Positions 1 to 14,957 of a stretch of DNA of 17,897 bases are shown one piece after another; the stretch's first letter is position 1; the number at the start of each line of letters is the position of its first letter. The stretch spans positions 1-17,897 of the forward strand of contig CANBTK010000001.1 in the NCBI GenBank assembly GCA_947372365.1, read 5' to 3'. A program made the translations under genes and the position numbers. The notes below the pieces were generated by a model. It was not told where the DNA came from and did no database searches. It was given only the letters and a program-made list of their open reading frames with translations. The DNA comes from Flavipsychrobacter stenotrophus (GTDB lineage: Bacteria; Bacteroidota; Bacteroidia; Chitinophagales; Chitinophagaceae).

Positions 1-497
1 TGTCCGAAGCGCTTATTGCGCTCATACTGGAAAAGGGTTATGAGCAGGTAACCATACAGGATATTGTAGCCCGGGCCAATACCGGAAGGTCTACATTTTA
101 TACCCACTATGAAAGTAAGGAGCAGTTGTTGATGGATGGGCATAAAAACCTTGGCGTAGCGTTTTTTGATGGAAGCCATGAATTCAATTTCCTGCCACTG
201 TTTGAGCATGCAGCACAGAACCTGCACCTGGCAAAGGCAATGTTTGGCAAAATGAGTGGCAACATCATTGTCAATTCATTCAGGAATCACGCCGCCGACA
301 AAATAAAGGAACAGCACAAAAGCAAGTTTGGCAAAAGTAAGAGCGATAAGCTTTTATTGGCCTATTATGCCGATGCCGCAGCTGCAGCTGTAATAAGCCT
401 GCTCGTTTCATGGATGGAAGGAGGTACACCCTTTACCAGCACCGAAATGGCAGCACAGTGCCAGCGCATTGTGGATGGGATTTTTAGTGGGAGGTGA
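1..497 (+). CDS. TetR/AcrR-family transcriptional regulator, 5' end outside the window
   Basis: The reading frame is open from base 3 and ends with TGA at 495-497; the start lies upstream of the window. The first visible residues, SEALIALILEKGYEQVTIQD followed by IVARANTGRSTFYTHYESK, are a classic TetR helix-turn-helix. The rest is a helical ligand-binding/dimerisation region of about 120 residues with no recognised subfamily. Such proteins usually repress a neighbouring gene and release DNA on binding a small ligand. The stop overlaps the start region of the next gene, so the two are probably co-transcribed and translationally coupled, which makes the ADP-ribosylglycohydrolase a likely co-regulated partner. 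The ligand cannot be told from sequence. Confidence 0.9.
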   Translation, partial: SEALIALILEKGYEQVTIQDIVARANTGRSTFYTHYESKEQLLMDGHKNLGVAFFDGSHEFNFLPLFEHAAQNLHLAKAMFGKMSGNIIVNSFRNHAADKIKEQHKSKFGKSKSDKLLLAYYADAAAAAVISLLVSWMEGGTPFTSTEMAAQCQRIVDGIFSGR

Positions 498-1420
498 TGT
501 TAATAATGGGGATTGAAAAGCAATGTAAGATTTTTATGGAATTACAGGATAGGGTTAAAGGGTGTTTTTACACAGGCGCAATAGGCGACTGCATTGGAGG
601 GTATTTTGAAAATAACACACGGGCCAGCGGTGGCTTTCTAAATTTTGAATGGCAGCTTTCTGATGACACACAGCTTACCCTTGCCACATGCGAATCTATA
701 ATTGCAACAAAAGGAATAAGCGCCGAAAATATTGCTGCCAGGTTCCTGCTATGGTTTAATGAAAATCGTATAACCGGCCTGGGAAGTAGTACACTTGGTG
801 CGCTAAAGGCGTTGCAAGTGGGAGGGCATTGGGCTCTGGCGGGTAGGCAGGGCGAATATGCAGCCGGAAACGGTGCTGCCATGCGCATAGCGCCATTAGC
901 ATTTTGGGAGCCGGGCAGGCAGGCCATAGCGGATGTTTGCAGGATAACACACCGAAACGATGAAGCCTATGCCGGCGCACTAGCGGTAGTGGAAAGTATA
1001 CAGGCTAGCATAAATGGGAGGTGGCATGATGGCGCAAAGTTGATACCCTTTTTGCTGGAGGCATTACCCGACACACAGGTGCGTGATCGTTTAATAGCAC
1101 TTAATAATGAAACAGCACCAATTTCCGAAGTTGGAAGGAAATATGGCAACAGTGGTTTTGTTGTTGATACTGTACCTCTTGCTGTTTACGCAGCTCAGTA
1201 TGCTACTGCCGGTTCCCTGCCAGAAATTTTTGAAGAAATTGTAAAATCTGGCGGAGACACTGATACCATATGCGCCATTGCTGGAAATATAGCTGGTGCA
1301 CATTTGGGGTATGGTCAACTGCCGCTTTTGTATAAGTCAAAGCTACACACAATCAAAGAAGCTGCGCTTCTCGAGCGACTGGTTGAGGAGTTTATTGAAG
1401 TTGTTTTAGCTGTTCGGTAA
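497..1420 (+). CDS. ADP-ribosylglycohydrolase (DraG/ARH family)
   Basis: About 300 residues, the usual family length. Two metal-binding signatures are present: SDDTQLT near residue 55 and GGDTDTICAIAGNIAGA near residue 253. The typical GNGAAMRIAPLA stretch lies near residue 124. The family uses two Mg2+ ions to remove ADP-ribose from protein side chains or to cleave related ADP-ribose compounds; the substrate here is unknown. No signal peptide is seen, so it is cytoplasmic. The start is uncertain. ATG 497 overlaps the upstream TGA as TGATG, which suggests coupling; GTG 494 and ATG 506 are alternatives, the latter 11 bases after GGGAGG; ATG 536 gives the family-typical beginning MELQDRVKGCFYTGAIGD. 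All motifs are retained, so it is probably active. Confidence 0.88.
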   Translation: MLIMGIEKQCKIFMELQDRVKGCFYTGAIGDCIGGYFENNTRASGGFLNFEWQLSDDTQLTLATCESIIATKGISAENIAARFLLWFNENRITGLGSSTLGALKALQVGGHWALAGRQGEYAAGNGAAMRIAPLAFWEPGRQAIADVCRITHRNDEAYAGALAVVESIQASINGRWHDGAKLIPFLLEALPDTQVRDRLIALNNETAPISEVGRKYGNSGFVVDTVPLAVYAAQYATAGSLPEIFEEIVKSGGDTDTICAIAGNIAGAHLGYGQLPLLYKSKLHTIKEAALLERLVEEFIEVVLAVR

Positions 1421-1569: not shown

Positions 1570-3234
1570 CTATTTGTACTTGATATTAAGCAGGCGCCTG
1601 GCATCGGCAGCTGTAATGCCGAAGCCTATGCCCTCGGTTAGGTCTGATAGCTTGCCTGTAACAATGCCTAGAATAATGCCATTACCATTGATAACTGCAC
1701 CACCCGAATTGCTGGCGTTGATGGAAGCATCTGTTTGCAGCATGGTTACGCCGTTCTTTTTCCTCACGCCGGAAATTATACCTTTAGACAGCGAGGTATA
1801 AGAAGATGTATCGCCGGATGCGCCTATTATCCAGGCATCATTGCCTATTTCAGGCTCGGCATCGGAGCTAAGGGCTAATGGGGCCAGCCCTGTTTTATTT
1901 ACCTTAAGCAGTGCAATATTTCCATCAGCGTTTTTCCTTACTACTTCGGCATCGGCTTTTGAACTGTCGTTGAAGGTGATAGCCACTTTTGTGGCGTTCG
2001 CTATGCTGGTATAGCTGGTGAGTATATACCCGTCGGTTGATATAATAACGCCGCTATAATTTTTTTTGCCGTTTTGAATTACAACGCTGGCGCTGTAGCA
2101 TTCTGAAGGCTTTTTTACTGCTGTTGTGGCAACAGGTGCTATCTCAATAGCAGCTTCGGTGGGCGTGCTGCCCACCGCTTTATTGATGGTTATGAGGCTC
2201 CTGTTCCTGAGGTCCTTTCGCACTGCCATAAGCGAATATTCAAGGTTATCCTTAATAATAGTGGTAACCAGGGTATTAATTTCCGCGTTCCCTGATCCTG
2301 CCTCCAGCGGATAGTAGTCCGATGTTTCGCGTGTTGTAATTGTTGCTACGTTTTGTTTATAATAGTCCAGCAGGTTCCATTCTATAGACAGCTCCACAGC
2401 CAGAAGTGCGCCACCACCGTTGCCGGAATTATTATACTTGCCTGATATCATATGGAATTTGATGTTCTTGATGGTAGCATCAATGTACATACTGTTGGTA
2501 ACGTCTGTAAATACCGAGCGTGACGTGTCAATAAAATTCATTTTATTGAGCGTCTTATTCAGCGAGTAGGTGAAAATGGTTTGCTCTACATTCAGGCGGT
2601 CTCGGCTTATTTTCTTGCCACTTTTTTCACGCCCGTTCAGCTGCCGGTTGCGTTCTTTCTCCAGTGTTTTATAGTTCACTACTTTGATGTCACCCTTTTT
2701 AACATCTATAGCTGTGCGGTTTACGAGCAGGTATTTTTCGTTGGCTTCGCGGCTCTCATAGGGCATCAGTTCGGGTATGGTGTACTTATTCTTGAACCTG
2801 TGCGTTTTGCTGGAAAATTTGTCCACACCAAGGAAGGCAAGTGTGAAAACGCCTTCTACAATTGCGGAGGTAGTACCTGACCCATCGTCGTTTTTGGCGC
2901 TGGTACTTATAAGCGCACCAGTGACACCTGCAGCTACATCAATTGCTGCGCCAACATAAAGTGATGTGCCTGGTTTTTCGAGGTTAAAGGCAAAACTGCG
3001 GGGCTTATAACCGTCTTTTTGTGCTGTAACGCAGTAGTATACGGCTGATTTGCGCAGTTTTTTACGCCCGGTGCCAATGCCCAGTGTGTCTTCCCCTAAA
3101 ATAATCCGGGCACCGGGAGTGGCGGTAGTAAAGGCTACACGCTGTTTGCGCGACGCAATAAAATAACCACACCCCGACAAGAAGAGGCAAGCGCACACAA
3201 GTGCAGCTGTTATCGCTTTAAATGAATGGCCCAT
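1570..3234 (-). CDS. Lipoprotein with C-terminal trypsin-like domain, predicted inactive (pseudoprotease)
   Basis: 554 residues. The N-terminus is a lipoprotein signal with lipobox LSGC (Cys22). Residues about 30-90 resemble a PEGA-type beta domain (ATPGARIILGEDTLG ... KDGYKPRSFAF). An unrecognised middle region follows, about 155-350, which also occurs in the upstream paralogue. Residues about 375-554 are a Deg/HtrA-like trypsin fold without a PDZ domain. Aligned by eye with the neighbour, the catalytic His position is Thr409 (ILTSYTSIAN instead of IVTNYHVVAG). The catalytic Asp position is Asn439 (DGNIALLK instead of LADLALLK). The Ser position, Ser510 (NASNSGGAV), is kept. Both substitutions were checked in the DNA (codons at 2008-2010 and 1918-1920), so it probably binds rather than cleaves. 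It follows the active paralogue by 6 bp, in one operon. The substrate is unknown. Confidence 0.85.
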   Translation of the reverse strand: MGHSFKAITAALVCACLFLSGCGYFIASRKQRVAFTTATPGARIILGEDTLGIGTGRKKLRKSAVYYCVTAQKDGYKPRSFAFNLEKPGTSLYVGAAIDVAAGVTGALISTSAKNDDGSGTTSAIVEGVFTLAFLGVDKFSSKTHRFKNKYTIPELMPYESREANEKYLLVNRTAIDVKKGDIKVVNYKTLEKERNRQLNGREKSGKKISRDRLNVEQTIFTYSLNKTLNKMNFIDTSRSVFTDVTNSMYIDATIKNIKFHMISGKYNNSGNGGGALLAVELSIEWNLLDYYKQNVATITTRETSDYYPLEAGSGNAEINTLVTTIIKDNLEYSLMAVRKDLRNRSLITINKAVGSTPTEAAIEIAPVATTAVKKPSECYSASVVIQNGKKNYSGVIISTDGYILTSYTSIANATKVAITFNDSSKADAEVVRKNADGNIALLKVNKTGLAPLALSSDAEPEIGNDAWIIGASGDTSSYTSLSKGIISGVRKKNGVTMLQTDASINASNSGGAVINGNGIILGIVTGKLSDLTEGIGFGITAADARRLLNIKYK

Positions 3235-3240
3235 GGCTCC

Positions 3241-4872
3241 CTATTTATATTTGATGTTTAATTTGCTGAATACTTCCCTGGTGGCTATCGCAAATGATAA
3301 GCCCTCTATGCCTGTGCCTACAATTTTAGAAGATACAATGCCCAGCACAAGGCCGTCTTTGTTAATAAGCGCCCCGCCGCTATTTCCGGGGTTTACCTTT
3401 ACGTCAGTTTGTATATAATCAATGCCTTCCCGGGCCCTAGTATTTGACACTACGCCTTTCGAAACGCTTTGACCCAGCTCCAGGCTACGTGGGGTGCCTA
3501 TTGCCCAAACGTCGGTGCCGCTTTCTATAGCCTGCGATTCGTTCAGTGGCAGTGGCTGCAGTCCATCCTTATTTATTTTCAGAAGGGCCAGGTCGGCCAG
3601 AGGGTTAGTTTTTACAACTTCAGCAATAACTGAGGTGCCATCATCAAAAATTATTTCTGTTTTTTTAGTGCCGGCAACTACGTGGTAGTTGGTTACAATA
3701 TACCCGTTGGCCGATATTACAACCCCGCTGCCATGCCCGTCATCTACCTTTACGGTTACTGAAGATTTAAGGTAGTCGTTAATCCTGCTTCCCGCTTTCA
3801 GTGGCTGCCGCTCTATCAATATTGCCATCGAAGTATCTGCCCTGGCATCGCCCGACATTTTTAAGAAGCCATTTTTGGCGAGTTCTTTCCGTACCTGCAT
3901 AAACGACAGCTGTATATTGTCCTTTATCGCATCAGCCACCCTTTCTTTAGTTGAGTCTTCAGGCCTTGGCTTGTCCTTGTGCCATTGCACTTTATGGGTG
4001 TTTATGGCATACATGCCTGATATTCGCGTTGTTTGCAGCGAGGTTACTTTTTGCTTGTAAACATCCAGCAGTTCCCAGTCAATATGCAGTTCGGCACATA
4101 CCAGGCTGTTGGGGTTAACTGCAGATGTTGACACGTCGCGCGGGAAGGCGACCTCATGTATGATTATCTTCTTGATAGTGGCGTTCAGGTAAAGGGAATT
4201 GCCATTGTGCGAAAACACGGAGTTGGTATCAATAAAGCCCATTTGCACCAGCGTACTATTGAGCGCGTCGGTGAAAACAGTGTTTTCAACAGATATGCTT
4301 TCTTTTACGAGCGATTTTTCATTTTTGCTTTTTTTGCCGCCGGAGTTAATAAACGCATTGTACCTTTTCATGCCTTTGTGGCGTATATAGGTAATATCTT
4401 CTTTTGCGGCTTCAATGGCTATTTTGTTGGCCTGTAGGTATTTTTCGTTGTTGCGTGGTTCTAATTTTTCAAGCGCGGGAATATTTTGCACCTTTTTGTA
4501 CCTGAATGTGCGCGGCGAGCCCAAATCCATCATGATGAACATCATCCATCCGCTTAGTGGGAAAGCGTCCAGGACTGCAAAAGCAAAGGCAGGGCTGCGC
4601 TTGTTAAGTGCCACAATGTGGTTGGCGCTTTTATACCCCTCTTTTGTAACAGTAAGCTGCTGGTAAGTGCGCCTTTTTCTGAATTTTACCCTTGCCTTGG
4701 TCTCGCCAACTTTGGCGCCGTTATAGGTGATAGTGCCTCCCGGGGTAGCGCTGTTTATAGTTACCCACTGGTTGCGTGAGCAAAAGATACTGCCGCAGCC
4801 GGCAAGTAGGGTACTTATAGCAATGATGGGGGCGTAAAAAAACGAGGAAGGTGCAAAACGGGTTGCCTGCAT
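3241..4872 (-). CDS. Lipoprotein with C-terminal trypsin-like serine protease domain (S1C-like), predicted active
   Basis: 543 residues. It has a signal peptide with lipobox LAGC (Cys26). A PEGA-like segment follows at about 35-90 (TPGGTITYNGAKVG ... TKEGYKSANHIVAL), then an unrecognised middle region at about 135-335. The serine protease domain spans about 365-543. The triad is complete: His397 (TNYHVVAG), Asp427 (NPLADLALLK) and Ser498 (VNPGNSGGAL). There is no PDZ domain, unlike DegP/DegS, and the enzyme is placed at the C-terminus of a lipid-anchored protein, which is an uncommon layout for the family. It is probably anchored in the periplasm or at the outer membrane. It is the first gene of a two-gene operon with the inactive paralogue. 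Cleavage targets are not indicated by the context. Confidence 0.87.
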   Translation of the reverse strand: MQATRFAPSSFFYAPIIAISTLLAGCGSIFCSRNQWVTINSATPGGTITYNGAKVGETKARVKFRKRRTYQQLTVTKEGYKSANHIVALNKRSPAFAFAVLDAFPLSGWMMFIMMDLGSPRTFRYKKVQNIPALEKLEPRNNEKYLQANKIAIEAAKEDITYIRHKGMKRYNAFINSGGKKSKNEKSLVKESISVENTVFTDALNSTLVQMGFIDTNSVFSHNGNSLYLNATIKKIIIHEVAFPRDVSTSAVNPNSLVCAELHIDWELLDVYKQKVTSLQTTRISGMYAINTHKVQWHKDKPRPEDSTKERVADAIKDNIQLSFMQVRKELAKNGFLKMSGDARADTSMAILIERQPLKAGSRINDYLKSSVTVKVDDGHGSGVVISANGYIVTNYHVVAGTKKTEIIFDDGTSVIAEVVKTNPLADLALLKINKDGLQPLPLNESQAIESGTDVWAIGTPRSLELGQSVSKGVVSNTRAREGIDYIQTDVKVNPGNSGGALINKDGLVLGIVSSKIVGTGIEGLSFAIATREVFSKLNIKYK

Positions 4873-4942
4873 TTTTATAGTTTTATAAGGTACATTTTTT
4901 GATTAGGCGCAATAAGGATAGCCCTCAGGTAGCACTGGTGGG

Positions 4943-4950
4943 CAAAGATA
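4943..4950 (-). promoter_or_regulatory. Candidate Bacteroidota -7 promoter element for the lipoprotein protease operon
   Basis: On the minus strand this reads TATCTTTG followed by C, an exact match to the TAnnTTTG -7 element of Bacteroidota sigma-A promoters. It lies about 70 bp upstream of the ATG at 4872. No convincing TTTG-type -33 element is seen at the usual distance, so this is a candidate only. Confidence 0.45.
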
Positions 4951-4988
4951 TTTAAAGGATGTCATAAATAGAAATACAGGGCTACCCC

Positions 4989-5708
4989 TTACCCATTCAG
5001 TGCCCTCTTATACATCTGTATAGTATTTTCAAGCCCATAGTAGAGGGCATCAGCGACCAATGCATGGCCTATAGATACTTCCTGCAGGCCGGGTATTTGC
5101 TGGGCGAAGTAGCCGAGGTTTAAACGGTCAAGGTCGTGGCCTGCATTGATGCCCAGGTTGTGGGTGTTGGCTACCTGCGCAGCTTTTATATAGCTGGCTA
5201 TAGCGGCCTCTTTGTTGGTGTGGTAGTTGCGGGCGTAATCTTCAGTGTACAGTTCTATGCGGTCGGTGCCCGTAGCGGCGGCGGCGGCAACCAGGTTTTC
5301 AACCGGGTCTACAAATATAGATACCCTTATGCCTGCCTGCTTAAAAACGCCTATTATCTGTTTCAGGTAGGCTTGTTCCTTTATGGTGTCCCAGCCGTGG
5401 TTGCTAGTAAGCTGGTTAGGGCCGTCAGGGACCAGCGTAACCTGTGCGGGCCTGGTTTCCAGTACCAGTGCAACGAACTTATCTTCAACGGGGTTGCCCT
5501 CAATATTAAACTCAGTTGTTATTATTTTATTTATTTCCCTTACATCGCTATAACGTATGTGGCGTTCATCGGGCCTTGGGTGCACCGTAATGCCATCAGC
5601 ACCAAATTTCTGGCAGTCAATAGCTACCTGCAGCACATTGGGGTTATCGCCGCCACGGCTATTGCGCAGGGTTGCAATTTTATTAATATTGACAGAGAGC
5701 TTGGCCAT
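4989..5708 (-). CDS. pdxJ: Pyridoxine 5'-phosphate synthase PdxJ
   Basis: 239 residues, full length for the family. PdxJ condenses 3-amino-2-oxopropyl phosphate with 1-deoxy-D-xylulose 5-phosphate to make pyridoxine 5'-phosphate, the last ring-forming step of the DXP-dependent vitamin B6 pathway. Family motifs appear in order: VNINKIATLRNSRGG at the N-terminus, GADGITVHPRPDERHIR with His43, FNIEGNP with Glu70, VTLVPDGPNQLTS, IELYTEDYA near 151-159, NAGHDLD with His191 and VSIGHALVADALYYGL. It is a cytoplasmic TIM barrel. It stands alone, with a 201-bp gap upstream to the VanZ-like gene and 116 bp downstream. GcvH and DapD nearby do not share its pathway. Confidence 0.95.
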   Translation of the reverse strand: MAKLSVNINKIATLRNSRGGDNPNVLQVAIDCQKFGADGITVHPRPDERHIRYSDVREINKIITTEFNIEGNPVEDKFVALVLETRPAQVTLVPDGPNQLTSNHGWDTIKEQAYLKQIIGVFKQAGIRVSIFVDPVENLVAAAAATGTDRIELYTEDYARNYHTNKEAAIASYIKAAQVANTHNLGINAGHDLDRLNLGYFAQQIPGLQEVSIGHALVADALYYGLENTIQMYKRALNG

Positions 5709-9409: not shown

Positions 9410-9521
9410 GTCCGCCCATTAGCAACTTTACCTAACTTCATAGCCGAAAAAAGCAAGCCCAGGCCAGCAATAAGCCAGGCTGGGTATTTTATTCACCGTG
9501 GGCCACCTATGTGCCAGTTGT

Positions 9522-11021
9522 ATGGGTAGATTTATAATAGCAGCGTTATTCCTATTGTCATTGGCGGCAAAGCTATGCGGGCAGGTTGTGCCTGCCGATG
9601 GTGCATTGTTGCATTACAGGCTTATTGGCTTTTCGGCCCCAGGCATGGCTTCAGGTGGTAGTTATATTTTACAGGTAGCAGAGGGCTATTATAACGAGCC
9701 GGATTCTTTTAAGAAGAATATCGCTTTTACCCTCGCAGCGAAGGCTGGTAAAATTGTAGCTGAAGTGCCGCACTGGGGTAAGGCTTACACCTGGTGTATG
9801 GTGGCTGCCAGCGGGGGCGCAGGCGCGCTACACCATTTCAGCACACAAGCCATAGCCTCCAGCGGGCCTGATGCCCGCAGGCTAAGGTTAGTGCAGCCCG
9901 CACTGAAATACGCCGATGCTTTTGTTTTTTCAGATGCGGCTAAGGCCTTGTATAACATGAAGGGGGAGGCGGTTTGGGTAATGCCTGCCATAGAAGGCGT
10001 TGTAAATGAAGGCACTGTGGTACGCGACCTCAAAATATCGCCTGCCGGCACCATTACTTTTATGACCATGGCCATGGCTTATGAGATTGATTATTATGGC
10101 AAAGTGCTGTGGCAGGCTCCTAACAGGGGGGAGGTAAGTGGCGAAAGCGTAGAGCATTACCACCATGAATTTACCCGGCTGGGCAATGGGCACTACATGG
10201 TGCTGGGGCAGGAGCTGGTGGCGTGGGGCTGGCAGCTTACCAGTACAGGCGATAGCACGCTCGTGTTTGCAGGCGGCGTGGGCCAGGATAATACCTTCAG
10301 GAAAACGTTTAAAATGCCTTTCGGTACTGTGTTGGAATATGATGCTGCCGGGAAGCTGGTTTGGGGCTGGCGGTATTCCACGTATTTCAGGGAAGCGGGG
10401 CTGAATACACAGATAGCCAAACGGGCTTACCTGGATAGCCATGAAAACGCGTTCTATTTTGATGAGAAGGCTGGCTTGCTTTATGTGAGCTTTAAAAACC
10501 CCAGCGAGGTTTTAAAGGTAAAATACCCCGAAGGCAAGGTGCTGGCTGTTTATGGCAAAGATTTTAAACATGCCTACGATACTCAAGCCACCGCGCCCTT
10601 TTGCCAGCAGCACGGCTGCAAAAAAGGTAAGGGGGGCGGTTTGTATTTGTTCAACAATAACTTCTGCAACCCCGGTGCATTGCCATCGGTGGCTATGTTT
10701 GAGGAACCTGCTGCAAAGCAGGGGCAACTGAAATTGGCCTGGGCATACCAATACCCTATAGCAGCTAAAGATGTAGTAAAAGTGGCAGCCACAACCGGGG
10801 GCAATGTGATAGAAATGCCGGGCGGCGAGGTTTTTGCTTCCATGTGCGCACCCTACGGCAATGTTTTTATTGTGGGCAAGGGCAAAAAGAAGCTTTGGGA
10901 TGCGGTGCTGGAAAAATGGGATGCAGCAGCTAACAAATGGGTGCCGCAAGACCAGTACCGCGCCAGCATAATAACCAGCCGCCAGCAACTGGAGCGGTTA
11001 ATAGGGAATGCCCAAAAGTGA
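9522..11021 (+). CDS. Secreted arylsulfotransferase (ASST)-like beta-propeller protein, copy 1
   Basis: 499 residues from ATG 9522, which starts a clear signal peptide (MGRFIIAALFLLSLAAKLCG). GTG 9498 would add eight residues before it. Residues about 23-108 look like an Fn3-type beta domain. A propeller of short repeats follows (DLKISPAGTITFM, YEIDYYGKVLWQ, GTVLEYDAAGKLVWGW). ASST-type histidine motifs are present: HYHHEFTRLGNGHYMV (His214/215), DSHENAFYFDE (His307) and FCQQHGCKK (His364), matching by position the three active-site histidines of E. coli AssT as I recall them. The active-site Arg position of AssT appears to be Lys325 here (VSFKNP). The family moves sulfate from aryl sulfates to phenols; substrates here are unknown. 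The stop overlaps only a possible early start of the next gene. Confidence 0.8.
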   Translation: MGRFIIAALFLLSLAAKLCGQVVPADGALLHYRLIGFSAPGMASGGSYILQVAEGYYNEPDSFKKNIAFTLAAKAGKIVAEVPHWGKAYTWCMVAASGGAGALHHFSTQAIASSGPDARRLRLVQPALKYADAFVFSDAAKALYNMKGEAVWVMPAIEGVVNEGTVVRDLKISPAGTITFMTMAMAYEIDYYGKVLWQAPNRGEVSGESVEHYHHEFTRLGNGHYMVLGQELVAWGWQLTSTGDSTLVFAGGVGQDNTFRKTFKMPFGTVLEYDAAGKLVWGWRYSTYFREAGLNTQIAKRAYLDSHENAFYFDEKAGLLYVSFKNPSEVLKVKYPEGKVLAVYGKDFKHAYDTQATAPFCQQHGCKKGKGGGLYLFNNNFCNPGALPSVAMFEEPAAKQGQLKLAWAYQYPIAAKDVVKVAATTGGNVIEMPGGEVFASMCAPYGNVFIVGKGKKKLWDAVLEKWDAAANKWVPQDQYRASIITSRQQLERLIGNAQK

Positions 11022-11091
11022 CGGTTATTTTTTCACGCCTTGGCCCATGATGCCATGCTTTACTATCTTTACCCGGCTATTACCGCCTACT

Positions 11092-12657
11092 ATGCCAAAA
11101 ATCTGCTGCGTATTGGTTTTACTATTGTTGTTAACCAACAAATTGGGTGCACAGCTGCACCCCCGCGAGGGCGATTCGCTTAATTACAGGCTTGTAGCCT
11201 TTATTGTGCCTTCGGGTGGTGAGCGCAAGATGGCAAGAAGCTATGATGCAGGCGCCCGCTATACCCTACAGGTAGCTACCGGTACTTATGATAACGATAG
11301 TGCGTTTAACGCGCATATTGATTTAACCCGGGAGTCGAAAGAAAACGTAATTATGGCTAAAGTAGCGCAGTTTGGCACTGCCTACACCTGGCGTGTGGCC
11401 TATAAGCCGAAAAACGGGGCTGTGCAGCCCGGGCCTTTGCGCCATTTTACCACCAGGCGGCCTATTGAAACTATTGGCGGCAGCACACGGCTAAGGGTAA
11501 CCCGCAGCGCGAAAAAGTATGCTGATGCCTATGTGATGCTTGACCATAACAAGTCGCTATATGATATGAACGGGGAGCTGCTTTGGTTCCTGCCGGATAT
11601 AAAGGGTGTTACTGACCGGGCCAGCCTGCGCGACTTAAAAATATCGCCAAGGAACACTATTACCTTCCTGGTAGATATGATGGCTTATGAAATAAACTGG
11701 GATGGCGACATTTTATGGAAGGCTCCTGATAATGGCAAGGTTAGCGGCGAAAAGCGGGAGTATTACCACCACGAATTTTCTATGCGGAGCAACTGGCATT
11801 ATATGGTTATGGGCAACCAGACCTTGCTGTGCAAGCTGCCCACGCCCGAAAATAAGTATGAGCTGCCTACCATTTGTAAAAACCAGTCAAAGCCCGATTC
11901 AGCCAGCAAGCTATACCGCAAACTGCAGTTTGGGACACTTATAGAGTATGGCCCCAAAGGCGATGTTCTATGGTCGTGGAAATCGGCGGAGCATTACGGC
12001 GACAAGCGCCTTAAAGATTACCTGAAATTAGCTGGCATAAGTGAATATGCGCTGCACGACAATGCCTTTTATTTCGATGAGCGCAACAAAGACATCTATA
12101 TCAGTTGTAAGAATTTCAGCGCCATACTCAAAATAAAATACCCACAGGGTACTATTACTGCTATATACGGCTCTAAGTTTGTGCCCGGTAGCGAAGCGGT
12201 GGCTGACACCCTGTTTTGCGCACAGCACAGCATAATGAAGGGGGCGGATGGCAGCCTATACCTGTTCAATAACAACAACTGCAATTTTGGCGAAGCACCC
12301 AAAATTATAAAGCTACAGGAGCCAGCAAGGAAAGGCGAGGGGGCTACAAAAATATGGGAATACACCTGCCCTCTTGAAGGTGCCAATATGGAGAAAGTAA
12401 AAAGTGCCAGCATAACCACTGGCGGCAGCGTTTACGAACTGCCCGATGGGTCCATTTTTACCAGCCTTTGCAGCCCGTATGCATCAGTTTTTATAGTAAG
12501 CCCGGAGAAAGAAATACTGTGGAGCGCCATACCCGAGCTGCTGAGCAAAGCAGAAGGCAGGTGGGTACTGCTGCCACAATACCGGGCCAGCATAATCACC
12601 GACCCGCGCAAAATTGAATATGTGGCCAGGAATACGAATTTGCTGCGTTTTGAATAA
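11092..12657 (+). CDS. Secreted arylsulfotransferase (ASST)-like beta-propeller protein, copy 2
   Basis: 521 residues from ATG 11092, which begins a clean signal peptide (MPKICCVLVLLLLLTNKLGA). ATGs at 11008, 11047 and 11050 are also in frame; the first overlaps copy 1 by 14 bp. The layout matches copy 1 throughout: an Fn3-like segment, DLKISPRNTITFL, YEINWDGDILWKAPDNG, YYHHEFSMRSNWHYMV (His226/227), LHDNAFYFDE (His322), FCAQHSIMKG (His379), SLYLFNNNNCN and PQYRASIITDPR at the end. Lys340 (ISCKNF) occupies the AssT arginine position, as in copy 1. The two are tandem paralogues, probably co-transcribed. Copy 2 has a Cys-containing insertion near 247-275 (CKLPTPENKYELPTICK). The stop lies 5 bp from that of the convergent DUF62 gene. 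Confidence 0.8.
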   Translation: MPKICCVLVLLLLLTNKLGAQLHPREGDSLNYRLVAFIVPSGGERKMARSYDAGARYTLQVATGTYDNDSAFNAHIDLTRESKENVIMAKVAQFGTAYTWRVAYKPKNGAVQPGPLRHFTTRRPIETIGGSTRLRVTRSAKKYADAYVMLDHNKSLYDMNGELLWFLPDIKGVTDRASLRDLKISPRNTITFLVDMMAYEINWDGDILWKAPDNGKVSGEKREYYHHEFSMRSNWHYMVMGNQTLLCKLPTPENKYELPTICKNQSKPDSASKLYRKLQFGTLIEYGPKGDVLWSWKSAEHYGDKRLKDYLKLAGISEYALHDNAFYFDERNKDIYISCKNFSAILKIKYPQGTITAIYGSKFVPGSEAVADTLFCAQHSIMKGADGSLYLFNNNNCNFGEAPKIIKLQEPARKGEGATKIWEYTCPLEGANMEKVKSASITTGGSVYELPDGSIFTSLCSPYASVFIVSPEKEILWSAIPELLSKAEGRWVLLPQYRASIITDPRKIEYVARNTNLLRFE

Positions 12658-13750: not shown

Positions 13751-13780
13751 ATTATCTTGCACTAAATTAATTTAATTATG
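13751..13780 (+). promoter_or_regulatory. Promoter/leader of the first DUF2911 gene, shared with the second copy
   Basis: The 30 bases ending in the ATG at 13778-13780 match the equivalent 30 bases before the second copy (14436-14465) at 22 positions without gaps. The shared part includes a -7-like TATCTTGC (TATTTTAC in copy 2) and the following CACT. The 284-bp divergent gap (13494-13777) otherwise holds only A/T-rich sequence. Confidence 0.45.
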
Positions 13781-14266
13781 AAACAAATTACATCCTTAGC
13801 CTTAGTTATGCTTTTTGCGTTCGGTAGCTCATTTGCAAAAGACCGAATGAGTAAACATGTAACCGTAAAAGGCGACAATGTTACCGTTACCTACGGCCAA
13901 CCATCAAAGAAACAAGGGAATGTTATCCCGGAATTTGGCAAGGCATGGCGCACTGGTGTTGACGAGCCAACTATTGTTACACTGCCTAAGGGTTGTATGT
14001 TTGCCGGCAGGCAGGTAAACCCGGGTACTTACAGCCTGGTTACTATCCCTTATAAGGGTGAGTGGATCATCTACCTGTCAAGCAATTTGAACCTTGACGA
14101 AAACTTTGACGCTGAAAAAGTAAAAGCAGAAAACCTGTTGTATAGCAACGAGTTGATAGGCCATTCAGCAAAAGGCGTTGATGCCTTCACTATCGAAGCT
14201 GTAAAAGACGGTTTGTTGGTATCTTGGGATAACAGCAACATCATGATCCCAGTTCAGCCTTGGTAG
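13778..14266 (+). CDS. Secreted DUF2911 protein, copy 1
   Basis: 162 residues. The signal peptide MKQITSLALVMLFAFGSSFA is followed by a DUF2911 domain: VTVKGDNVTVTYGQPSKK, FGKAWRTGVDEPTIVTLPKG, GRQVNPGTYSLVTIPYKGEW and FTIEAVKDGLLVSWDNSNIM. DUF2911 is common in Bacteroidota and has no established function. It is likely periplasmic. This copy lacks the KGRDIFGGL segment after the first strand that copy 2 retains (here KKQGNVIPEFG), so it is the more diverged of the tandem pair. It is followed by its own hairpin. Confidence 0.85.
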   Translation: MKQITSLALVMLFAFGSSFAKDRMSKHVTVKGDNVTVTYGQPSKKQGNVIPEFGKAWRTGVDEPTIVTLPKGCMFAGRQVNPGTYSLVTIPYKGEWIIYLSSNLNLDENFDAEKVKAENLLYSNELIGHSAKGVDAFTIEAVKDGLLVSWDNSNIMIPVQPW

Positions 14267-14322: not shown

Positions 14323-14435
14323 AGTCGTTTGGCCCCGGTGCTTACAATGGGAGGGCATGTGCTGTATCAAGTGTTAAACTTTATTCCAACCGTGCGGAAC
14401 CAGCTTATTTCTTTTGATTGCCTCATTTTAATTAC

Positions 14436-14465
14436 ATTATTTTACACTCAAAATCTATAATTATG
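14436..14465 (+). promoter_or_regulatory. Promoter/leader of the second DUF2911 gene
   Basis: The 30 bases ending in ATG 14463-14465 align without gaps to those before copy 1, with 22 identities, including a -7-like TATTTTAC and CACT at the same distance from the start codon. This suggests that each gene has its own promoter. Confidence 0.4.
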
Positions 14466-14957
14466 AAACAATTTTCCGCATTATTGTTAGTTATGGTGCT
14501 CGCCATAAGCAGCTCATTTGCCAAAGACCGTGCCAGCGCACATTCAACAGTTAAAGGTGATTTCATTAGCATTACTTATGGCCAGCCCAAGATGAAGGGC
14601 CGCGATATCTTTGGTGGCTTAGTGCCGTTCGGGCAGGTTTGGCGCACAGGTGCTGACGAAGCAACCGAAATTACCATAACTAAGGGCTGTGTAATAGCAG
14701 GCAAGCAGGTGAGCCCGGGTACTTACTCATTGTTTACTATCCCTGAAAAAGGCGAGTGGACAATAATATTGAACTCAGAACTGAAACAATGGGGTTCATT
14801 CGGCTACGATAAGATTGCTGACAAAAACGTATTAGTAGCTACCGTGCCGGTAACCAAACTGAGCAAGCCAGTTGAAACATTTACTATCGAGGTAATGAGC
14901 ACAGGTTTTACCATGTCATGGGACAAAACAAGTGTATTTGTTGAAACTAAACTGTAG
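14463..14957 (+). CDS. Secreted DUF2911 protein, copy 2
   Basis: 164 residues from ATG 14463, chosen because it begins the signal peptide MKQFSALLLVMVLAISSSFA, parallel to copy 1; an ATG at 14418 would add 15 residues with no signal character. The DUF2911 features are more typical than in copy 1: ISITYGQPKMKGRDIFGGL, VPFGQVWRTGADEATEITI, GKQVSPGTYSLFTIPEKGEW, TIILNSELKQWGSFGYD and FTIEVMSTGFTMSWDKTSV. It is probably periplasmic, with no known function. It is the tandem paralogue of the gene 196 bp upstream and is followed by a strong terminator. Confidence 0.88.
   Translation: MKQFSALLLVMVLAISSSFAKDRASAHSTVKGDFISITYGQPKMKGRDIFGGLVPFGQVWRTGADEATEITITKGCVIAGKQVSPGTYSLFTIPEKGEWTIILNSELKQWGSFGYDKIADKNVLVATVPVTKLSKPVETFTIEVMSTGFTMSWDKTSVFVETKL

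Follow-up and report, generated by a model that had tools for sequence, protein, structure and literature searches.

The downstream member of a tandem pair of predicted lipoproteins with trypsin-like protease domains has lost its catalytic site, and in this one family the active site of the downstream twin seems to have been broken several times, at different residues, with the upstream copy left intact. The pair (genes A and B; Table 1) lies in the window, the stretch of 17,897 nucleotides that was analysed. We give about an even chance to the reading that selection keeps B as a non-catalytic partner for A, like MamO beside MamE. The source genome was incomplete (70.8% complete, 568 contigs).

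Table 1. Features of the A-B region, in nucleotide positions of the window or in residues of the protein.
Feature	Position	Strand	Description
pdxJ	4989-5708	minus	upstream of gene A
Gap	4873-4988	minus	116 bp, pdxJ (same strand) to gene A
Gene A	3241-4872	minus	543 aa, predicted lipoprotein (Cys26), intact S1C trypsin-like protease domain
Gene A PEGA domain	residues about 37-91		Pfam match above cutoff in A only
Gene A middle domain	residues about 140-335		limits are our reading of the structure model
Gene A S1C trypsin-like protease domain	residues about 370-543		H397/D427/S498, GNSGG
Spacer	3235-3240	minus	6 nt (GGAGCC), stop of A to ATG of B
Gene B	1570-3234	minus	554 aa, predicted lipoprotein (Cys22), built as gene A; pseudoprotease domain

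Translation of gene A placed the catalytic residues His397, Asp427 and Ser498, as a sequence-only reading of this DNA had claimed, in standard surroundings (NYHVV, DLALL and GNSGG), and the protein was matched by Pfam Trypsin_2 at 114 bits (cutoff 27.6). Trypsin-like fold, His-Asp-Ser triad and GNSGG are those of S1C (HtrA-type) serine proteases. The C-terminal PDZ domain of DegP- and DegS-type HtrA proteins was lacking: the protein ends with the protease domain, and PDZ was absent by Pfam from A and B of the window and from 20 A-type and 10 B-type members. Gene A is thus predicted to encode a PDZ-less, active protease of the HtrA-like (S1C) kind. A PEGA-like N-terminal domain is common to A and B. 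The middle domain of neither window protein matched a Pfam family, and stray weak matches were returned among the 20 and 10 members; in structure searches with the models of both proteins, the protease domain was matched in the best rows. Lipobox-like patterns (LLAGC26 in A, FLSGC22 in B; sequence patterns only) mark both as predicted bacterial lipoproteins with a putative envelope location.

The earlier claim of two lipoproteins of like architecture, 6 bp apart, was borne out: A and B have the same build and are identical in 193/561 alignment columns (34%, BLASTP). Thr409, Asn439 and Ser510 of B (codons ACC, AAT and TCG) were confirmed by translation and face H397, D427 and S498 of A in the BLASTP alignment. 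Two base changes separate ACC from either His codon, so a single sequencing error does not explain Thr409. Ser508 of B replaces the oxyanion-hole Gly496 of A, which we take to be residue 193 (chymotrypsin numbering), being two before the catalytic Ser; the GTPxxLELGQ and GHG (379-381) stretches of A are likewise missing. With T409, N439 and S508, B thus has neither the triad nor the oxyanion-hole Gly of an active serine protease. Residues 370-554 contain no His, which rules out a replacement triad built on a His from within this domain; that other residues supply the triad had been named beforehand as a result that would count against a pseudoprotease. The protein is otherwise whole, as had been proposed, with a 554-aa open frame and its lipobox pattern. 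Its chymotrypsin fold is kept: Pfam Trypsin_2 was matched at 80 bits (cutoff 27.6), and the best ten Foldseek rows were MucD, DegS and related proteins (E 7e-15 to 2e-14, rmsd 2.2-2.9, TM by target 0.53-0.77; mean pLDDT of the model 75).

To judge from their spacing, A and B are likely to be carried on one transcript, and the operon start may lie within the gap between pdxJ and gene A. A TAnnTTTG promoter match in this gap (4943-4950) was rejected as a candidate, as the window holds 15 such matches where 19.7 are expected.

Relatives were collected as the best 120 of 284, 120 of 6573 and 120 of 299 protein matches, and trees were built by FastTree; the 138-protein set left out proteins below 450 aa and 4 duplicates. 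Among the matches listed, B fell on a long branch (0.8) in a clade of 12 members with support 1.0: window B (P0001), P0002-P0006, P0160, P0164, L013B (= P0007), L014B, L015B and L016B. A triad residue is lost in six of them, every loss being different (window T-N-S, L016 H-D-V, P0164 H-D-N, L013 H-D-G, L014 H-D-T, L015 R-D-S). The His-to-Thr and Asp-to-Asn combination of window B was absent from all other proteins examined, so that the expectation of the same losses in relatives failed: Ser was replaced by Gly, Thr, Val or Asn, and His by Arg. This breakage of the second gene by other mutations suggests that the inactive copy is retained for some function besides proteolysis.

The remaining six B-clade members keep H-D-S, the kind of full-triad orthologue that had been set down as a refutation, and in four of these GNSGG is altered (GNSGS, TNSGG, ANSGG and ANSGG). 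Standard triad and motif are both present in P0002 and P0160, and inactivity is therefore not universal in the clade. Taken together, a non-standard triad or GNSGG was found in 10/12 B-clade proteins vs 1/126 other family proteins of the 138-protein set (Fisher p 1.4e-12, relatedness ignored). Outside the clade H-D-S is present in 126/126, which places the loss in B beyond chance, and GNSGG in 125/126 (exception P0207, GSSGG). Residue 193 is other than Gly in 6/12 members. A 17-position cleft score was 14-17 in the 126 others and 4-16 in the B clade, where P0002 (16/17) was the sole member within the normal range; this score describes rather than tests, as most positions were picked after the B clade had been seen. 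Window B and its nearest relative, L016B, have lost different residues, and intact-triad members are interspersed on the trees, from which we count at least five loss events, assuming no regain; the number is approximate because the inner branches of the clade are weak, with a branching order that is weakly supported and varies between trees. Triad loss was seen in 5/5 B-clade members with DNA vs 1/7 known as protein alone.

All five B-clade members with DNA have an intact A immediately upstream of B, in the same orientation (gaps: window 6, L013 30, L014 18, L015 24, L016 2 nt). The forecast of a conserved pair thus held for synteny, kept in 4 further genomes, and for the recurrence of active/inactive pairing, and failed for the identity of the residues lost. 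Among protein-only members, P0002/P0126, P0005/P0136 and P0164/P0141 are candidate A-B pairs, each B-clade protein coming from an assembly whose longest contig equals in length that of the A-type protein's assembly. The pair was present in 2/11 genomes of the window's genus, its own genome counted, and in 2/5, 1/3 and 1/2 genomes of three other genera; no shared neighbour genes were recognised on reading the open reading frames of L013-L016.

The wider family was surveyed in 395 genomes of the window's class with an A-type alignment (A2), and 46 genomes, the window's own included, gave a match. Regions around every match listed were covered, including all 51 places outside the window's own genome, and the best 3 candidates per genome were scored. 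Triad loss was found in 4/7 multi-copy vs 0/41 single-copy loci (Fisher p 0.00018), in L077 (H-D-T), L078 (E-G-L), L083 (C-N-N) and L084 (C-N-N); the last two come from one genus, so the effective number is below the nominal one. Addition of loci from the family, order and genus searches gave 9/15 multi-copy and 0/48 single-copy loci, and the last additions (the window; L154, multi-copy and intact; single-copy L153, L155, L156 and L157) brought the count for all loci surveyed to 10/17 and 0/52, the latter including some single-copy loci so close to the end of a contig that a partner may have been missed. These totals combine loci from B-type queries (the window, L013-L016 and L153-L157) with the class survey; L074, a single gene spread over two frames, was excluded; L129 (= L016), L151 (= L013) and L152 (= L015) were counted once.

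The degenerate copy was immediately downstream of an intact copy in 10/10 triad-loss loci, and in 9/10 the two were at most 30 nt apart. At L071 it is the middle of three, and the contig stops within the intact copy upstream, of which 294 aa are present. Every triad-losing copy has an open frame; nine are 530-587 aa long, and the tenth (L078) has 437 aa, with residue assignments that rest on a weak alignment. Degenerate copies outside the B clade fell in three places on a tree of 207 proteins: L077, L071, and L078 with L083/L084, the last a grouping (0.962) that possibly reflects long-branch attraction. Three or four origins are thus indicated besides the B-clade losses. All triads were intact in 7/17 multi-copy loci (L017, L072, L075, L080, L097, L100 and L154). 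H-D-S with a non-standard motif was seen in the first copies of L080, L097 and L100 (GSSGG) and in single-copy L118 (GNSGS).

The usual assembly of HtrA-type protease domains is a trimer in which loops carry activation from one subunit to another, so a dead subunit can still help a live neighbour. In the mechanism proposed here, A and B would be co-expressed envelope lipoproteins derived from an old duplication, and B would be kept by selection for a non-catalytic job beside A. B would most likely join A, in physical contact and with a positive effect, helping to present substrate to A or switching A on, as MamO does for MamE. Once the cleft of B was freed from cutting, it could have been broken at a different residue in each lineage, with constraint persisting on the fold and on the N-terminal and middle domains. 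Cross-activation in trimers, taken with the promotion of MamE-dependent proteolysis by MamO, whose site is degenerate (PMC4794232), leads us to prefer the reading of B as a non-catalytic partner of A.

Conservation was compared by domain across 5 loci (10 genome pairs), with domain limits set by us. Mean pairwise identity was 49% (PEGA), 44% (middle) and 50% (protease) for B, and 41%, 37% and 61% for A; B was the more conserved in 9/10 genome pairs for PEGA, 10/10 for the middle domain and 0/10 for the protease domain. Taking positions with conservation of 92% or more among 47 A-type neighbours, B had lost 12/51 in the protease domain (376, 379-381, 398, 406, 460, 461, 466-468 and 496) and 0/22 elsewhere. 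By alignment, 11 of the 12 fall in four kinds of stretch: beside the catalytic His, ahead of the first strand motif, in the loop that follows the Asp region, and at the oxyanion hole. The number of lost positions was discarded as a hallmark of B: of eleven nested A-type control clades, nine had lost 0-3 conserved protease-domain positions and two had lost 8/65 and 11/64. These control losses lie partly beside catalytic residues (N395, L428, P495), with none in the triad or GNSGG; apart from outer sites of the G521 type, the control clades kept all 12 positions that B has lost. B is therefore set apart by which positions were lost and not by how many.

The same domain comparison, in which the PEGA and middle domains are better conserved than those of A and the protease domain less, lends weight to the main rival of the partner reading, namely that B is non-catalytic and works alone through its PEGA and middle domains, with the protease domain as a leftover scaffold or peptide-binding module and adjacency as a trace of duplication. 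Pseudoproteases can take unrelated jobs, metal binding by MamO being an example (PMC4794232). A stand-alone role is nevertheless rather unlikely, given that a triad-less copy away from an intact one was found in none of the 52 single-copy loci and that the downstream position was kept in all ten triad-loss loci, closely spaced in nine. An inhibitor or decoy, in which mixed trimers or substrate binding by B dampen proteolysis, is improbable: like architecture and likely co-expression would allow mixed trimers, and a B without a working cleft could act as a dominant negative, but MamO, the closest studied case, activates (PMC4794232).

Decay of B after duplication, under relaxed constraint and en route to a pseudogene, would account for lineage-specific residue losses, the long branch and the patchy distribution. 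Synonymous sites were saturated between the five A-B pairs (whole-gene pS 0.74-0.86), and dN/dS of B and its orthologues was therefore not usable. Omega was instead obtained from a C-N-N pseudoprotease common to two genomes of another genus (G906 and G952; 86% identical), and was 0.373 for the whole protein (95% bootstrap 0.263-0.520), 0.274 (0.171-0.450) for the protease part and 0.493 (0.307-0.809) for the N-terminal part; the active partner gave 0.235, 0.123 and 0.284, respectively. A triad-less copy of the family is thus under purifying selection, weaker than that on its partner throughout; a dN/dS close to 1 had been set down beforehand as a refutation, and the value for this analogous copy is not of that kind. 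Stronger N-terminal constraint was not seen in this pseudoprotease, which differs in this from the B-clade pattern. Relaxed decay is disfavoured by this omega of 0.37 (upper bound 0.52), from another genus, and by the 44-50% identity of B-clade proteins by domain despite saturated synonymous sites; with open frames in 10/10 triad-losing copies besides, we hold it to be very improbable. Residual or substitute catalysis by B, at least in H-D-S members, is given just as little credence, since the protease domain of window B lacks His altogether, has no Asp at the triad position and carries Ser at the oxyanion-hole glycine, even though 6/12 B-clade members keep H-D-S and P0002 and P0160 also GNSGG.

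The protease domains of A and B are like those of DegP, DegQ, DegS and HtrA (MEROPS S1C) in fold and sequence; the two differ from these proteins in having no Pfam PDZ domain, in being predicted lipoproteins with PEGA and middle domains and, for B, in lacking the triad. Active and inactive paralogues are also used together in rings of the ClpP/ClpR type, whose assembly is known, whose fold is unrelated to that of A and B and which are ATP-dependent.

The non-catalytic partner reading is closest to MamE/MamO (MamE1/MamE2), in which an HtrA-family protease and a pseudoprotease with a degenerate triad are likewise encoded in one gene cluster (PMC4794232); A and B are an active-looking and a degenerate HtrA-type paralogue so arranged. 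A further likeness is the non-Gly residue 193 of half the B clade: in the MamO crystal study, such a residue was argued to block the active conformation of the oxyanion hole (PMC4794232). By this analogy, a mechanism in which the pseudoprotease raises the activity of its partner may apply to A and B as well. Differences are clear. A and B are PEGA-type Bacteroidota lipoproteins in a two-gene array with no PDZ matches, whereas MamE and MamO are magnetosome proteins. The surface di-His metal site of the MamO protease domain is excluded for window B by its lack of His, and B has no Trp at residue 192, Ala507 standing before Ser508. B matched the NCBIfam MamO model at 35 bits vs a cutoff of 800, and the A/B family as a whole scores well short of the curated values for MamO and MamE; the trees contained no MamE or MamO sequences.

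The idea of such pairs is already known, since active/inactive HtrA pairing, with inactive copies arising repeatedly after duplication, has been described in magnetotactic bacteria (PMC4794232). No paper on such pairs in Bacteroidota was found among the open-licence papers listed. New here is a family apart from MamO/MamE by score, architecture and Bacteroidota host. It is possible, and put forward tentatively, that Bacteroidota have widespread but patchy envelope protease complexes in which the second tandem gene was repeatedly made a non-catalytic subunit required for the first, with the loss itself selected, whatever mutation came first. Repeated breakage raises the testable question of whether loss of catalysis in the partner is selected or merely tolerated.

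The pair points to a family of lipoprotein proteases without PDZ domains that is as yet uncharacterised, and annotations as 'S1C serine protease' in this group should be read with caution, as they include dead copies. Named records carrying this protease family are Bacteroidota. Of the named records that carry the pair, the nearest is a MAG labelled Flavipsychrobacter stenotrophus (Chitinophagaceae); it matches a genome of the window's own genus (G595), with B 100% identical over 570 residues and A over the 488 compared.

Among the loci surveyed, L083 and L084, which belong to one genus other than that of the window, held the only pseudoprotease pair (pseudoprotease, a copy without the catalytic triad) in which identical residues were lost in two genomes. 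An active copy and a copy with C-N-N at the His-Asp-Ser (H-D-S) positions were found abutting in 2/5 genomes analysed from this genus.

Three-gene arrays were found in other genomes. At L071 (G379:C61), the middle copy (893-2656) carried E-E-T at the H-D-S positions and was flanked by two copies with intact triads. At L097 (G815) and L100 (G899), all three genes belonged to the same protease family as window genes A (intact) and B (degenerate); the first copy in each retained H-D-S and had a GSSGG motif around the catalytic Ser and 9 of the 17 cleft residues. Judged by these residues, this copy is possibly a further degenerate family member, placed upstream in the array rather than downstream. 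The family member at L074 (G536:C420, 3640-5197) is apparently broken into one frame of 252 aa and another of 276 aa that overlap, by a frameshift or an assembly error.

Coordinates of abutting copies in other genomes and of further window genes
Feature	Location	Strand	Basis or spacing
Active and C-N-N copies	L083 2978-6115		zero spacing
Active and C-N-N copies	L084 3991-7164		zero spacing
TetR C-terminal-region protein gene and ADP-ribosylglycohydrolase gene	window, together within 126-1420	+	
ASST-like gene 1	window 9498-11021	+	weak Pfam arylsulfotransferase (ASST) match
ASST-like gene 2	window 11008-12657	+	weak Pfam arylsulfotransferase (ASST) match
DUF2911 protein gene	window 13778-14266	+	Pfam DUF2911
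Neighbour of DUF2911 gene	window 14418-14957	+	sequence similarity to 13778-14266 product

Besides A and B, the window held a second pair of similar genes, the ASST-like genes, which overlap by 14 nt and encode products resembling each other. The proteins encoded by the DUF2911 gene and its adjoining neighbour were likewise similar in sequence. The ADP-ribosylglycohydrolase gene shares 4 nt with the TetR C-terminal-region gene, the real start of which perhaps lies further upstream.
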